Assembly (NCBI GenBank): GCA_017407705.1
Contig: JAFQWA010000007.1
Coordinates: 1-64,000 of the forward strand
DNA length: 64,000 nucleotides
Source: Clostridia bacterium
Lineage (GTDB): Bacteria > Bacillota > Clostridia > Oscillospirales > Acutalibacteraceae
Direction of reading: 5' to 3'
Each line of letters starts with the position of its first letter. Position 1 is the first letter of the stretch. The translations under genes and the position numbers were made by a program. The notes below the pieces were generated by a model, which was given only the letters and a program-made list of their open reading frames with translations, searched no databases and was not told where the DNA came from. Of this stretch, positions 25,006-36,645 are shown piece by piece.

Positions 25006-25044
25006 ACAGCCGAACAATAACATAAAGGTTGTTCGGCTGTTTTA
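25006..25044 (+). terminator. Terminator or attenuator between the two sortase-type genes
   Basis: ACAGCCGAACAA (25006-25017) and TTGTTCGGCTGT (25029-25040) with TTT after. A second hairpin, AATGTC-GATTTTT-GACATT (25054-25072), ends just before the GGAGGTG of the next gene. No promoter fits between this stem and the next start. Confidence 0.75.
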
Positions 25045-25085
25045 CTACTGTTAAATGTCGATTTTTGACATTTGGAGGTGAAAAT

Positions 25086-27149
25086 ATGGATAAACAGCCT
25101 GAATTTCAGGAGGAAAATGTAAATCAGCAGCCTACCAGTACCGATGAACAGATTTCGTTGATGCTGGATGAGCTTTTTGGCAAGGAAACTGATGAGGAAA
25201 TATCAGAGCAGCCTGAACCCGTTGCTGTTGAGGATACAGTGAAAAAACCGAAAAAACTGTTAAAACCGCTGTTAGCGTTGCTTTTGGTAGTGTGTATTAT
25301 CATTGGCTCAGTGACGGCAGTATCATATTATAAAAAGGCCACGGTGCCTGATGCTTATGATAAGTCAGTAGCTTACAGCAGAGAGCTTTATTCATCGGAT
25401 AAACAGTATGATATGCCCGAACAGTATTTGCCGGAGTTTGGTGGGTTGTATAACGCCAATCGTGATATTTTCGGCTGGATAGACATTGAGGGAACTGATA
25501 TAAATCATCCTGTTATGTCCTATAAAAACAACGACTATTACAAGGATCATTTATTTAACAACCGCTCCAATAAATACGGTACCTTTTATTTTGCTTCCAA
25601 TTACAAGCAGCTTGAGTATAATTACAACACTGTAATTTACGGCAACAATTTCTCCGACTCCCGTGCTTTTGGTGAGCTTGTGAAATACACAGATGCTGAC
25701 TTTGTAGAAGAAAACCCCATTATAAATATGGATACTTTAATGGAGAAGGTATCCTGGAAGATATTTGCCGTAGTGCTGTATGACAGTGATAAATACAACC
25801 CTGCCAAAAACAGCTTTTACGACGACGTTGAGTTCAGTGAGTTTATTTTGGATATTGAAAAATATACCCTTATTAAAACCTCGGTGGACGTTAGTGAGGA
25901 GGATGTTTTGCTCACACTGATCACCGATCATAACAGTAAAAACGGTGATAAATTGGCTGTTTTTGCCCGTGCTATGAGGTTTTATGAGAGTGAAGAGGAT
26001 GAGGTGTTTGCTCATTTTAACGATGCAGCACAAACCCCGTCTAATCAGCACAGCACCACTGATGAGCAAAAGATAACTGCTAACGCTACTGTTTTGCAGT
26101 CAACCTTAACTCAGGGCACAACCCAGAGTCCGGACACTACTCAAACATCGGTTGAAGCCACAACTGCTACAACCACTAAAACCACCGCTACAACCACCAA
26201 AGTCACTACTAAACCCACCACAACCAAACCTACTACCGCTAAACCAACTACAACCACCAAACCCACTACTAAGCCCACTACTAAGCCTACCACCACCAAA
26301 AAACCTACTACCACCAAGCCTACCACCACTCAAAAGCCATCAGGCACAGCAAAAAAGATACGTGTAAAGGATTCCTCAACAGGTAAGATATATTATGAGG
26401 AAGCACCTGCTATAATTGCAAAAATAATTGAAGCTGAAATGGGCTCAAGCTATGAACTTGAGGCATTAAAGGCTCAGGCAGTTGCTGCATATACTTATAT
26501 GCTTTACAGCGGTGCGGCAGACGGTAAAGCCCCGTCGGCACCTATGAAAACTGCAGGAAGCCGTGCTATACAAGCCGCTAACGCTGTTGCAGGACAAACC
26601 ATAACCTATAACGGTCAGCTGTGTAATGCGGTGTATTCTGCAACCTCTGCAGGAAAAACCGCTAACTGCAACGAGGTCTGGACTGCAGACCTGCCGTATC
26701 TCCGCTCAGTGGACTCAGCGGTGGATGAAAGCGTTTCTAACTTTAAGACCACCCGTGTTTACACTGCAAGTAACATAGCGAAATGGGTGAAATCCGAGTA
26801 CGGTGTGGACCTTACCACCGTTAAGGATAAAACCAAGTGGTTTAGCTGCACTTACGACGCCAATAAGCTTTATGTGAAAACAGTTTCCTTAGGCGGACTT
26901 AAGTCGGTTAAAGGCATCAATTTACGTTATGATCTGTTTACTTCATCCCGAACAGGCTCGTCTAACACCCTTCGTTCCCACGCTTTTACCGTGTCTTACA
27001 GCTCATCAAACGATAGCTTCACCTTTACCGTTAAGGGCTACGGTCACGGCGTTGGACTGAGTCAGACCGGCGCTAATCAGTATGCTAAAAAGGGCTGGAG
27101 CTACGCTGAGATATTAAAGCATTATTATAAAGGCGTTACTTTATCATAA
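25086..27149 (+). CDS. Membrane-anchored pseudo-sortase fused to SpoIID/LytB domain
   Basis: A 687-residue protein. A cytoplasmic tail (1-58, acidic then KKPKK) leads to a membrane helix (about 61-82). Residues 110-300 have the class B sortase fold pattern (NRDIFGWIDIEGTDINHPVM, NRSNKYGTFYF), but the catalytic His is Asn187 (YGNNF) and the Cys is Asp281 (TLITD); Arg295 remains, so transpeptidase activity is not expected. After a TTKPTT-rich linker (about 345-420) comes a SpoIID domain (about 425-687) with AEMGSSYELEALKAQAVAAY, catalytic-type Glu451, and GYGHGVGLSQTGA; SpoIID cleaves denuded glycan strands in engulfment. Start ATG 25086 is set by GGAGGTG; the frame is open from 25029. Confidence 0.87.
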   Translation: MDKQPEFQEENVNQQPTSTDEQISLMLDELFGKETDEEISEQPEPVAVEDTVKKPKKLLKPLLALLLVVCIIIGSVTAVSYYKKATVPDAYDKSVAYSRELYSSDKQYDMPEQYLPEFGGLYNANRDIFGWIDIEGTDINHPVMSYKNNDYYKDHLFNNRSNKYGTFYFASNYKQLEYNYNTVIYGNNFSDSRAFGELVKYTDADFVEENPIINMDTLMEKVSWKIFAVVLYDSDKYNPAKNSFYDDVEFSEFILDIEKYTLIKTSVDVSEEDVLLTLITDHNSKNGDKLAVFARAMRFYESEEDEVFAHFNDAAQTPSNQHSTTDEQKITANATVLQSTLTQGTTQSPDTTQTSVEATTATTTKTTATTTKVTTKPTTTKPTTAKPTTTTKPTTKPTTKPTTTKKPTTTKPTTTQKPSGTAKKIRVKDSSTGKIYYEEAPAIIAKIIEAEMGSSYELEALKAQAVAAYTYMLYSGAADGKAPSAPMKTAGSRAIQAANAVAGQTITYNGQLCNAVYSATSAGKTANCNEVWTADLPYLRSVDSAVDESVSNFKTTRVYTASNIAKWVKSEYGVDLTTVKDKTKWFSCTYDANKLYVKTVSLGGLKSVKGINLRYDLFTSSRTGSSNTLRSHAFTVSYSSSNDSFTFTVKGYGHGVGLSQTGANQYAKKGWSYAEILKHYYKGVTLS

Positions 27150-31853: not shown

Positions 31854-33278
31854 TTATTGCATAATAAGATCGTTTATAAACTTTGCGGTTTTTGTTCTGT
31901 CTGCCTTTTGCAGCAGATATGCCATATTGGAAGGCTTTGTGGGATCCCAGTCAAAGGAGCAGTCATCGTTTAAAGTCATAGTTCCGCTTTGCACTTCAAA
32001 CAGCTCATCCAACCCAAACACTGCATACAGCACTGTGCAGGGGTCTGCGGTGTGATGATCCCAGTTGTCACCCCATCTGCCTCTGTGAAGCTCATAGGCA
32101 CGTTTTACGGGGTTATCGTCGGGCATATTGTGAAAATCGTTGCCTACAAAAATGTTATGTCCGATCTCTCTGCCAGCAAAGGTTATCCTTTTTGGAAAGT
32201 TGCGTATGGCATAAACAGCGGGAATGGGATCTCTTGTAAAATTAACGTTATCGGCGGCGGTGTCTTTGGGGAAATTGCCGCCCATACATACCCACTCACG
32301 GACCTTACGTTGTATCAACTCCATACCCGAAAGGGGAGAAATATCATCTGCACCGCTTTGCATAAGGGTTTTCACATTAGACATATACCCGATAGTAACC
32401 AAGGTTACCGACTCGTCACGGGCCTCAGCAAGGGCTTTTCTCATAACACTTACAGCATCTTCGGCCTCATCATTTGTGGCGGTTTTATGAGGAAACTCTG
32501 CGGCAACCTTGTCCAAAAAGCAGGAATCCTCTCTACGGTAGCCGGTGCCGTTTTTGGGAGCACCCAAGGGAATATCGCCTCTGCCGTAATAGGTGTTGAT
32601 AGAATCCACCACCGGCGCCGACATAGGATAAGAGCCCGACACAGTAACGCCTAAAATGTTTGCCTTGCCCATTTTTTCAAGTTTAATAAGTAATGCCAAT
32701 GCGGCAGTGTCGTCGCAATCGGTCATCATATCTGTATCCAGCAAAATATTTGCAGGATTGGGGCGTGGGAGAGCGTAAAAATCCTCTCTGAAGCCCGACT
32801 TTTCGGCGTCGTACTCATTCCACATACTGTCAGAAAAATTACAGTCTTCAATTTTTTCTATCAGTCCCACAGATATGCTGTGTCTATCACCCAAAAACTG
32901 AGTTTCTAAAAATATATCAACCAATTTTATAGCAGTGGCTTCATCAAGATGCTTGCCGCCAAGACAGATAACGTTTGCATCATTATGCTGTCGGGTGAGC
33001 ATAGCCGACTCCTCGTCGGTGACTAAAGCTGCACGAACACCGCAAAACTTGTTGGCAACCATACTCATACCAATTCCCGAGTTGCATATCAGTATGCCGA
33101 AATCAGCCTTTTTAGTTGCCACCGCAGTAGATACCTTAGCGGCGTAATAGGGGTAGCGGACAATGTCACAGCTGTCAGACCCTTCGTTTACTACCTTGAT
33201 CTTTTTGCTGCGTAAATGCACCGTTATGGCTTTTTTCAGGGCATATCCACCGTGATCGTTGGCGATATAAACGGTCAT
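31854..33278 (-). CDS. RpiB/LacAB isomerase - nucleoside hydrolase fusion
   Basis: A 474-residue two-enzyme fusion. Residues 1-145 are a complete RpiB: ANDHGG at 6-11, catalytic Cys65 in ILICNSGIGMS (usual form ICGTG), and RQHNDANV at 96-103. Residues 175-474 are an inosine-uridine-type nucleoside hydrolase with the calcium-binding DTDMMTDCDD at 181-190, GYMSNVKTL and the C-terminal HHTADPCTVLYA block. The hydrolase would free ribose from nucleosides and RpiB interconverts ribose 5-phosphate and ribulose 5-phosphate, so a kinase is needed between them. GAGGTAA precedes ATG. It follows the amidohydrolase gene by 11 bases. Confidence 0.88.
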   Translation of the reverse strand: MTVYIANDHGGYALKKAITVHLRSKKIKVVNEGSDSCDIVRYPYYAAKVSTAVATKKADFGILICNSGIGMSMVANKFCGVRAALVTDEESAMLTRQHNDANVICLGGKHLDEATAIKLVDIFLETQFLGDRHSISVGLIEKIEDCNFSDSMWNEYDAEKSGFREDFYALPRPNPANILLDTDMMTDCDDTAALALLIKLEKMGKANILGVTVSGSYPMSAPVVDSINTYYGRGDIPLGAPKNGTGYRREDSCFLDKVAAEFPHKTATNDEAEDAVSVMRKALAEARDESVTLVTIGYMSNVKTLMQSGADDISPLSGMELIQRKVREWVCMGGNFPKDTAADNVNFTRDPIPAVYAIRNFPKRITFAGREIGHNIFVGNDFHNMPDDNPVKRAYELHRGRWGDNWDHHTADPCTVLYAVFGLDELFEVQSGTMTLNDDCSFDWDPTKPSNMAYLLQKADRTKTAKFINDLIMQ

Positions 33279-33289
33279 ATCAAGTTACC

Positions 33290-34084
33290 TCACTCGTTGA
33301 TATTATAAACCTTAACAGCATTTCTGCTGAATATTTTTTGCTTTGCAGTATCGCTTAAATTCAACTGTTCTATGTAATTAAGTTCATCGGGGGCGTTCCA
33401 CATAGGATAGTCAGTGCCGAACATAATATGGTCCTCACCGTAAATATCCACCAGCTTTCTCACTGTGTCAATAGGGCACTCGAAAAAGGTGGAGCAGGTA
33501 TCTACGTAAACGCCCGTATCCCACAGCCATTTTGCAGATTCTTCCCACTCGGAATATCCACCAAAGTGAGCGGCAACCACTGTAAGCTTGGGGAACATCT
33601 TCATAATGTTTTTAACTCGGTATGCTTTGGAATACTCATATCTTTTATCGCCGGTATGGAACAAAACGGGAATTCTGCCCTCAATACATTCGTATATCTT
33701 ACAAGCGTTTTTATCATCAATATTAAACTTCTGAAAATCGGGGTGCAGCTTGATGCCGGTAAGTCCCAGTGAGATCAAACGGTCGATCTCGTCGGCAATA
33801 TTTTCATAATCAGGGTGCATAGTGCCCAGACCTGTGAACCACTGAGGGTACTTTTGCACCTGAGAAGCAATAAAATTGTTAATGCTTTCTACCTGAGCGG
33901 GTACAGTGGCGGCTGAATGGACTACAAAATGGTCCACACCGCTTGAAGCTGCTGATTTTATCAGTCCCTCGGCAGTTCCGCCACCCCACATCTCGATGTT
34001 GTAAAATGCACCGATGCCTTTGGTGGCTTTTTCAGCCACCTTGTCGGGGTAAATGTGGGTATGGGTATCAATAAGTTTATACAT
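33290..34084 (-). CDS. Amidohydrolase-2 family metal-dependent hydrolase
   Basis: A 264-residue TIM-barrel hydrolase. DTHTHIYP at residues 7-14 supplies the HxH metal pair; GIKLHPDFQ near 109, LFHTGDK near 139, AAHFGGY near 170 and FGTDYPMW near 222 (metal-binding Asp) follow in the order of the amidohydrolase-2 (gamma-resorcylate decarboxylase/TatD-like) group. The substrate is not evident. It lies between polA (23 bases upstream) and the RpiB-nucleoside hydrolase fusion (11 bases downstream) on the minus strand, so it may take part in nucleoside or sugar salvage. Confidence 0.87.
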   Translation of the reverse strand: MYKLIDTHTHIYPDKVAEKATKGIGAFYNIEMWGGGTAEGLIKSAASSGVDHFVVHSAATVPAQVESINNFIASQVQKYPQWFTGLGTMHPDYENIADEIDRLISLGLTGIKLHPDFQKFNIDDKNACKIYECIEGRIPVLFHTGDKRYEYSKAYRVKNIMKMFPKLTVVAAHFGGYSEWEESAKWLWDTGVYVDTCSTFFECPIDTVRKLVDIYGEDHIMFGTDYPMWNAPDELNYIEQLNLSDTAKQKIFSRNAVKVYNINE

Positions 34085-34107: not shown

Positions 34108-36645
34108 TTATTTGGTTTCAAACCAGGTTTTGCCACACTTGACCTCTGAGGTCATGGGCACCTTCATTTTGACAGCGGCTTCCATTTCCTCTTTGAGTAT
34201 GGCAGCAACCTTTTCCTGCTCTGAAATGGGTGCTTCGCAGATAAGCTCGTCGTGTACCTGCAATATAAGCTTGGCATTGAGGTTTTCCGCTTTTAGTCGG
34301 TTGAACACCTTAACCATTGCGATCTTGATTATATCCGCAGCGGTGCCCTGAATAGGCATATTTCTTGCAACACGCTCACCAAAAGCACGCATATTGAAAT
34401 TGCTTGATGCAAGCTCGGGCAAATATCTGCGACGGCCAAATGAAGTGGTTACATAACCGTCCTGCTTTGCTTTTTCAACGGTATTGTCCATATACTCACG
34501 AACACCTTTGTAGGTGTTCATATATCCTTCAATATACTTTTTAGCCTGAGCAACGCTTACGCCAATATCCTTAGACAGTGAAAATGCACCGATACCGTAA
34601 ACGATACCGAAGTTAACAGCCTTTGCACGGCTTCGCATTTCAGACGTTACCATATCCACAGGCATATTAAACACCTGAGATGCAGTAAGTGTGTGAATAT
34701 CCACGTTATTTAAAAAGGCGTTGCACATAGTTTCATCGTCGGCAATATGGGCAAGTACTCGAAGCTCGATCTGAGAATAGTCTGCATCAACCAGCACGTA
34801 ACCCTCTTTAGCAGTGAAGAATTTACGCAACTCTCTGCCAAGCTTAGTACGTACGGGAATGTTCTGCAGGTTGGGTTCTAACGAACTTATTCTGCCGGTT
34901 CTGGTTTCGGTTTGGTTAAAGGTAGAGTGTATTCTGCCGTCATCACCGATAACCTTGATAAGTCCGTCACAATAGGTGGACTTCAGCTTGGTAACGCTTC
35001 TGTATTCCAGCAAAAGCTCCACTGCGTCTGACTCGTATCGCAGATTTTCCAAAACCTCTGCACTGGTGGAATATCCGGTTTTAGTCTTTTTGCCGTGGGG
35101 CAGACCTAACTTTTCAAACAACGCCTCACCCAGTTGTTTGGGTGAATTGAGATTAAACTCATATCCGATAATATCAAATATCTCCTGCTGAAGCTGATAG
35201 GCTCTGTGGGCAAGAAATTCACCGTAGGCCTTGATGCCGTTGGCATCCACTAAAAAGCCTTCCTTTTCCATTTGGTAAAGAGTGTAGGATAGGGGAATCT
35301 CAATATCACGCAAAAGGGATAACTGTCCGTTATCCTCGATTTCTTTTGAAAGCAGCTTATATATCTCACTTAAAAGCTTAAGCTCGGATATACAACCTGC
35401 AAATTCACCCTCAAAGGTTTCTGCTGCAACGGATTTAATATCTGCTATTCGGCTTATAGAATAGTCCTTGGAATCGGGAATAAGCAGGTAAGCCGCCAAC
35501 ATAGTATCAAAGGCGATAGAAGGCTCGAACTCAAGGTCTAAGCTGTGATACAGTCCCTTGCAGTTGTGAGTTATGATGTTTTTAGCCATTAAGGGATAGG
35601 TAAGGTTTTTATTAAATAAATAAACAGTATCGTTGAGTAATGCTAAAACAACCTTTTTATCAGCGTCGAAAAGCATTACTGCATTATCCAGGCAAACGTT
35701 AAAATCATTTTCGATAATTTTAATTTCGGTGGCTGTAATGGGAGTTGCCGTAATATCGGTGTTTACATCAGCAACTGAATTAAGCTGCAGCTTGTCTATG
35801 GTTTTGAACATTTCAAGCTTAATAAGCAAGGCTTTAAGAGCAGACTTATCCATACCGCCCAAAGCATAGCTTGTAATGTCGTTATCAATGGGAACAGTGC
35901 GGCAGATAGTGCCCAGTTCTCGGCTCAAAAAGGCGTTGTCTTTATCGTTTATCAGCTTATTTCGAAGGTTATCCTTAATATCAAGGGTGTCGATCTCGCT
36001 GTATATTTTATCAATGGAACCGTATTTTGAAATAAGATCTCCTGCAGTTTTAGGACCCACTCCTGCAACACCGGGGATATTATCGGAGCTATCCCCTTGC
36101 AAAGCCTTGATCTCTATCATCTGCAACGGGGTAACGCCGTAATCCTCTTTGATTTTAGCAGTGTCGTAAACCGTTACAACGGGAGCACCTGCTTTAGTAG
36201 CGGCAAGCATAACCTGAACACTGTCACTGACCAGCTGCAGAGAGTCACGGTCACCGGTGGCAATAACACACTGATTGCCGCTGTTTTGGGACATTTCTGC
36301 AAGAGTACCTAAAATGTCATCAGCCTCAAAGCCTTCTTTTTCCAACACCTTGCAGCCGTAATAGGTTAAAACCTCTTTCAAAACGGGAAGCTGCATGGCA
36401 AGTTCATCGGGCATCGGCTTTCTGCCTGCCTTATACTCACTGTACTGCTTATGACGGAAGGTGGGTGCTTTAAGGTCAAAGGCAACGGCAATACCGTCAG
36501 GCTTGACTTCACTTTCCAGCTTGAAAAGAATATTCATAAAACCGTAAATTCCGTTGGTAAACATACCGTCCTTAGTGGATAGGGGACGAATACCGTAAAA
36601 GGCACGGTTTATTATGGAATTACCGTCTATAGCAAGCAGCTTCAT
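34108..36645 (-). CDS. polA: DNA polymerase I
   Basis: An 845-residue family A polymerase for Okazaki fragment processing and repair. Residues 1-290 are the 5'-3' exonuclease (DGNSIINRAFYG, FEADDILGT, GDSSDNIPGVAGVGPKTA). Residues 310-460 replace the proofreading domain; the DxE metal motif is not seen (FDADKK where it is expected), so proofreading is probably lost, as in Bacillus. The polymerase domain has DYSQIELRVLAHIADD (motif A), RAKAVNFGIVYG (motif B) and VHDELICE (motif C). Start ATG has AGGAGA before it and a good promoter upstream. Two hydrolase genes follow in the operon. Confidence 0.97.
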   Translation of the reverse strand: MKLLAIDGNSIINRAFYGIRPLSTKDGMFTNGIYGFMNILFKLESEVKPDGIAVAFDLKAPTFRHKQYSEYKAGRKPMPDELAMQLPVLKEVLTYYGCKVLEKEGFEADDILGTLAEMSQNSGNQCVIATGDRDSLQLVSDSVQVMLAATKAGAPVVTVYDTAKIKEDYGVTPLQMIEIKALQGDSSDNIPGVAGVGPKTAGDLISKYGSIDKIYSEIDTLDIKDNLRNKLINDKDNAFLSRELGTICRTVPIDNDITSYALGGMDKSALKALLIKLEMFKTIDKLQLNSVADVNTDITATPITATEIKIIENDFNVCLDNAVMLFDADKKVVLALLNDTVYLFNKNLTYPLMAKNIITHNCKGLYHSLDLEFEPSIAFDTMLAAYLLIPDSKDYSISRIADIKSVAAETFEGEFAGCISELKLLSEIYKLLSKEIEDNGQLSLLRDIEIPLSYTLYQMEKEGFLVDANGIKAYGEFLAHRAYQLQQEIFDIIGYEFNLNSPKQLGEALFEKLGLPHGKKTKTGYSTSAEVLENLRYESDAVELLLEYRSVTKLKSTYCDGLIKVIGDDGRIHSTFNQTETRTGRISSLEPNLQNIPVRTKLGRELRKFFTAKEGYVLVDADYSQIELRVLAHIADDETMCNAFLNNVDIHTLTASQVFNMPVDMVTSEMRSRAKAVNFGIVYGIGAFSLSKDIGVSVAQAKKYIEGYMNTYKGVREYMDNTVEKAKQDGYVTTSFGRRRYLPELASSNFNMRAFGERVARNMPIQGTAADIIKIAMVKVFNRLKAENLNAKLILQVHDELICEAPISEQEKVAAILKEEMEAAVKMKVPMTSEVKCGKTWFETK

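Follow-up and report, generated by a model that had tools for sequence, protein, structure and literature searches.

The window (the whole stretch of DNA analysed, 64,000 nucleotides) carries an open reading frame that joins an isomerase of the RpiB/LacAB type to a nucleoside hydrolase (Table 1). The frame runs from an ATG at 33278 to a stop at 31854, with no internal stop codon or frameshift over its 474 codons. Pfam LacAB_rpiB covers residues 3-137 with 160.9 bits (curated cut-off 24.7), which places the N-terminal half in that family, and IU_nuc_hydro (PF01156) covers residues 178-430 with 52.4 bits (curated cut-off 34.2). With both domains above their cut-offs, the frame uninterrupted and relatives fused too, the claim of the earlier note that the two enzymes form one protein is upheld. 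The motifs quoted there (ANDHGG, ICNSG with Cys65, RQHNDANV and DTDMMTDCDD) are all present. No frameshift or stop that would indicate two separate genes lies between 31854 and 33278, so the fusion stands, and the catalytic core of both halves is retained in every homologue seen. A structural model of the whole 474-residue protein, built from only three rows, was poor (pLDDT 62) and was set aside.

Table 1. Features of the fusion gene and its surroundings, with window coordinates.
Feature	Coordinates	Strand	Basis or remark
Whole fusion ORF, 474 aa	31854..33278	-	ATG start preceded by GAGTGAGGTAACTTGAT
RpiB/LacAB-type isomerase half, residues 1-150	32829..33278	-	Pfam/NCBIfam; comparison with 56 stand-alone RpiBs and a wider set; tree
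Linker, residues 151-170	32769..32828	-	Alignment; translation of L032 (split-gene locus)
Nucleoside-hydrolase half, residues 171-474	31857..32768	-	Pfam; hhalign; residue table; AF2 model; PDB matches
Amidohydrolase (PF04909)	33290..34084	-	Co-directional; stop 11 bp before fusion start
polA-type DNA polymerase I	34108..36645	-	Named from sequence; co-directional; 23 bp before amidohydrolase
Strong hairpin with U-run, just past the fusion stop codon	31826..31853	-	Fold -19.2 kcal/mol, z -6.2

The short gaps between the three genes, together with the hairpin and its U-run after the fusion stop codon, suggest that polA, the amidohydrolase and the fusion form a single transcription unit, of which the hairpin is probably the terminator. 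The position of the fusion behind polA and an amidohydrolase, as described earlier, is correct for the window (same strand, gaps of 23 and 11 bp), but this order is absent in the relatives. There the neighbours are an EamA transporter (genome G029), a DUF4380-like protein and a dockerin-GH5 protein (G073) and, by the look of its sequence, a ribonuclease Y (G231). With different neighbours in the relatives, the polA context was dropped as a functional clue; polA is probably unrelated in function to the fusion, and the amidohydrolase is a co-directional neighbour that may act in the same pathway. In G073 the genes beside the fusion (L035:7283-9466) encode a DUF4380-like protein of 309 aa, which scores below the family cut-off, and a dockerin-bearing GH5 cellulase. 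Elsewhere in the window (25029-27149, forward strand), a 706-aa protein combines a sortase-B-like N-terminal part, a Thr/Lys/Pro-rich linker and a SpoIID domain. By eye, this protein has TLITD in place of the sortase TLxTC, the catalytic Cys seemingly being lost; Pfam confirms the SpoIID domain only.

Full-length matches to the fusion are present in 4 of the 398 genomes of the bacterial family: the window genome, G073 (65% identity), G029 (63%) and G231 (57%). The search of related genomes proposed in the earlier note was thereby rewarded, since the proteins of G073 and G029, at 63-65% identity, are fused as well. G231 encodes the halves as neighbouring genes separated by 45 bp, of which the second has an AAGGGG ribosome-binding site. 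The linker carries a W...D.E pattern common to the other fusions, and the same pattern forms the C-terminal tail of the split RpiB gene in G231 (GDCWNPGDRE, compared with GECWESADRE in G029). The genomes are mostly metagenome-assembled, and the fusion could on that account be an artefact of assembly or gene calling; this explanation has a negligible chance of being right, for independent fused copies with the common linker pattern occur in three genomes at 61-65% identity. Assembly error and chance are practically excluded because the same fusion recurs at 63-65% identity in two other genomes. No RpiB-nucleoside hydrolase fusion was matched in a search of the open-access literature, and the plasmid and phage collections held no such fusion (no record above 80% coverage).

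The residues of the isomerase half were compared with those of 56 stand-alone RpiB proteins (C. thermocellum numbering) and with a wider, divergent set. The window protein has N7, I39, R41, N66, S67, K109, I135 and S136. It is one of five variant proteins that form one clade (support 100/98 in a tree of 78 RpiBs), in which R136 is changed to S, R109 to K or Q, D41 to R, S39 to I and G66 to N or S; N7 and I135 belong to this signature too. S136 and R41 are found in five of five variants, versus R136 and R109 in all 56 stand-alone RpiBs, which also have Asp (49 proteins), Asn or His at position 41. The wider divergent RpiBs retain R136 where alignable and vary at position 109; S136 with R41 is for this reason the better mark. 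D8, H9, Y42, C65, H98, N99 and R132 are unchanged in all five variants, as is H133 in the fused and paired set. From RpiB proper (PF02502, TIGR01120), with which it shares the fold family and Cys65, His98, Asn99 and Asp8, the isomerase half differs at residues 136, 109, 41, 39 and 66, in the attached hydrolase and in being accompanied, in each of the four Clostridia, by one further RpiB-family gene with standard residues.

The isomerase half scores above the rpiB equivalog cut-off (TIGR01120; 143.1 vs 138.65 bits) and below those of LacA and LacB (67-100 bits vs 164-325), and its best solved relatives are the C. thermocellum RpiB structures 3he8 and 3ph3. The phosphate-binding set of a ribose 5-phosphate (R5P) isomerase is incomplete: R132 and H9 are kept, and R109 is replaced by K or Q and R136 by S in five of five variants. 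Because of the loss of R109 and R136 the protein is filed as a member of the RpiB/LacAB family and not as an R5P isomerase; the automatic annotation 'ribose 5-phosphate isomerase B', which follows from the equivalog score, is probably functionally wrong here. The earlier note took ICNSG as a possible mark of changed specificity. The change of G66 to N or S does mark the clade, but that of T67 to S occurs in only two of the five proteins. The broader proposal of a changed isomerase specificity has gained from the R136, R109 and D41 replacements, which are more telling than ICNSG. Judged from the sequences, these changes point strongly to altered specificity and moderately, not decisively, to an unphosphorylated substrate.

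DHU is an unphosphorylated compound. The RpiB-family isomerase DhuI acts on DHU (PMC12838403), and LacAB, in which an Arg on the same loop takes the place of Leishmania Arg113, can bind D-ribose and D-allose and convert both sugars (PMC3755991). Both belong to the family of the present isomerase and offer precedent for phosphate-site changes that accompany other substrates, including free sugars and sugar acids. Where LacB has Arg39 the window protein has Ile, and its new Arg at 41 lies two positions further on; an identification of the two arginines was therefore rejected, and a similar role for R41 is only possible. R41 might also be a new phosphate ligand. The phosphate anchors of Leishmania RpiB are His11, Arg113, Arg137 and Arg141 (PMC4783025); of these, the variant proteins retain equivalents of His11 and Arg137 but have lost those of Arg113 and Arg141. 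The Leishmania D45N mutation (position 41 here) abolishes R5P activity and leaves D-arabinose activity, and the wild-type enzyme also isomerises D-ribose, roughly seven times more slowly than R5P (PMC4783025). A fungal RpiB-like protein, from C. immitis, has small polar residues in its phosphate site, for which another substrate was proposed, and still binds phosphate through Ser and Lys (PMC3212906). It shares the RpiB fold with the present protein, and most of its phosphate-binding positive residues are likewise replaced, but it lacks the ring-opening His that is kept here and it is not fused. Since serines and one lysine can bind phosphate (PMC3212906), R136S and R109K are no proof of an unphosphorylated substrate.

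RpiB also occurs inside ORFs of about 560-670 aa in Verrucomicrobiota, Kiritimatiellota and Lentisphaerae (L095, L096, L098-L102; e.g. L096:262-2010, minus strand). In the two tested (L096 and L102), it is fused to serine hydroxymethyltransferase (SHMT), and the other RpiB-family gene of the Kiritimatiellae genome G817 encodes an RpiB-SHMT protein as well. RpiB is N-terminal in these and in the present fusion; there, however, the partner is SHMT and RpiB residues 41 and 136 are standard. The RpiB-SHMT proteins show no apparent consecutive reaction, so fused enzymes do not necessarily catalyse consecutive steps.

The hydrolase half was modelled with AF2 (16 relatives, 17 rows; pLDDT 93.2). A fold search with this model matched nucleoside hydrolases across the whole length (Z 24-28, about 50 solved entries), with Z 27.6 and an rmsd of 2.9-3.0 over 275 residues to XopQ and to the C. 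fasciculata nucleoside hydrolase, which identifies a nucleoside-hydrolase fold and bears out the statement that this half is complete. Profile comparison (hhalign) with E. coli RihA/B/C gave 96.7% probability. A sequence search of solved structures gave marginal matches (best E 0.029), and it is the clear matches of the fold search that settle the fold. RihA, RihB, RihC and the C. fasciculata enzyme (PF01156) share with the hydrolase half the whole-domain fold (Z about 27), the metal-site aspartates and the Asn aligned with RihC N165, which is retained in close relatives; the DTDMxTDCDD loop is two residues longer here, and identity in the structural alignment is about 15-23%. The metal-site aspartates D181, D183, D189, D190 and D412 are retained, and the counterparts of the RihC Ca-site aspartates (D10, D15 and D234) and of D14 are conserved in 17 of 17 subfamily rows. 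T340 replaces RihC N157, N344 replaces E163 and A411 replaces H233; across the subfamily rows the three positions hold T/S/P/D, N and A, respectively, and RihC N39 is replaced too. The counterparts of N157 and E163 are taken, from the C. fasciculata enzyme, to contact the ribose 5'-OH, and H233 is the active-site His. Ordinary nucleoside hydrolases of the same bacterial family retain N157 and E163. The RihC equivalog gives 24.4 bits against a cut-off of 382, and the Rih-type residue set is absent.

Searched with the hydrolase half, about 85,000 species genomes yielded 21 loci, of which 8 reach at least 50% identity. Within the flanks examined, RpiB lies beside the hydrolase, or is fused to it, only in three Clostridia among these loci; one further hydrolase (L039, Verrucomicrobiota, about 61% identical) starts at a contig edge, beyond which a fused part might lie. 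G817, which belongs to another phylum, encodes a stand-alone variant RpiB of 150 aa and a 50%-identical hydrolase on different contigs. In a sample of 288 genomes of that phylum the variant RpiB is present in one and a hydrolase of at least 445 bits in three, G817 among them. The variant isomerase thus co-occurs with a close hydrolase in five genomes (three fused, one adjacent, one unlinked). Close hydrolases with the same altered residues are also found in Paenibacillus, Lentisphaerae and Cyclobacteriaceae, where no variant RpiB was found, so the change in the hydrolase is independent of that in the isomerase.

The fusion is real, conserved and rare; its two parts come from known families, and the active site of the isomerase has been rebuilt. 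The reading preferred here, with a probability of roughly 0.5, is that of a bifunctional enzyme in which hydrolysis frees an aldose that the isomerase half turns into a ketose, both unphosphorylated. It would be a cytoplasmic enzyme whose C-terminal half, a metal-dependent member of a divergent subfamily of the nucleoside-hydrolase fold, cleaves an N-glycosidic (nucleoside-like) bond. The aldose so released would be free and probably not ribose, and the N-terminal half, an RpiB paralogue with a rebuilt phosphate site, would convert it to the ketose by Cys65/His98 chemistry. Consecutive action, an unphosphorylated sugar and a sugar unlike ribose at C5 are each inferred, as are the substrate and the order of the steps. 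Both halves are altered where they would meet C5 of the sugar, with the chemistry residues intact. Because both lose the residues that hold this end in their relatives, the simplest account would be that they share a sugar whose C5 end differs and which is isomerised unphosphorylated once the hydrolase has released it. The pair would then skip a kinase step, as the earlier note supposed. This account is limited by the close hydrolases with the same replacements that lack a variant RpiB, and by the RpiB-SHMT proteins. More specifically, and only tentatively, the enzyme may serve the salvage of a nucleoside-like compound with a C5-modified sugar (5'-deoxy, 5'-thio, 5'-carboxy or hexofuranose), the free aldose being isomerised directly to the ketose without an intervening kinase. 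In that case the sites that recognise C5 would have been rebuilt in both halves for one sugar, and the route would depart from known 5-deoxyribose salvage, in which phosphorylation precedes isomerisation (PMC6079011). That two enzymes with changes at one and the same sugar end are paired suggests a salvage or catabolic step of anaerobic bacteria that has so far gone unrecognised.

A kinase would be equally unneeded if the hydrolase cleaved 5'-phosphorylated nucleotides to R5P, for conversion to ribulose 5-phosphate. The absence of the Asn/Glu pair at the 5'-OH site could leave room for a phosphate, R41 adds positive charge near the isomerase pocket, Ser/Lys phosphate sites are known (PMC3212906) and the isomerase half exceeds the rpiB equivalog cut-off. 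We nevertheless regard this route as unlikely: R136 and R109, which bind R5P and are present in 56 of 56 stand-alone RpiBs, are lost, the Leishmania enzyme requires position 41 for its R5P activity (PMC4783025), and the residue table has no basic replacement at the N157 and E163 positions of the hydrolase half. As to the choice in the earlier note between a nucleotide-using hydrolase and a free-sugar isomerase, the loss of the 5'-OH-aligned residues could fit either; that of the two phosphate-site arginines favours the free sugar. Ordinary ribonucleoside salvage would tether non-consecutive steps: ribose set free by the hydrolase would be phosphorylated by a separate ribokinase before the fused isomerase acted on R5P. 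A ribokinase-like gene is present in the genome (296.7 bits against a cut-off of 299.65), and the RpiB-SHMT proteins show that RpiB can be tethered without direct relay, but each of the four Clostridia already has a standard RpiB, the fused copy is non-standard and the hydrolase has other residues at the positions that align with the ribose 5'-OH site, which makes this scheme rather improbable. About as improbable is a conversion of the isomerase half into a module for binding or oligomerisation, with no pathway formed by the two halves. Several conserved pocket positions have changed together and RpiB enzymes form dimers and tetramers (PMC3212906); against this, D8, H9, Y42, C65, H98, N99 and R132 are kept in all five variants and a stand-alone copy exists in G817.

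A family search of the genome's kinases recognised no dedicated ribulokinase, and the single FGGY kinase above the cut-off is rhamnulokinase-like; these ribokinase-like and rhamnulokinase-like kinases do not decide between the routes. A rhamnulokinase-like gene (L115, contig C35 of G000) is followed directly downstream by a gene resembling rhamnose isomerase.

Members of the wider hydrolase subfamily are common among Verrucomicrobiota, with 44 of 288 genomes carrying them. In some proteins (L043, L044, L045 and L054) the domain is joined to LamG/Ig domains, is found twice in tandem within a single protein of 1140 aa or, in L054, is fused to a GH43 glycosidase. The LamG and GH43 fusions hint at substrates beyond the common nucleosides. 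In Paenibacillus piri (L038:6432-11928), two such hydrolases, the second without a Pfam match at E 0.001, follow one another straight after a sugar-type ABC transporter with its solute-binding protein.
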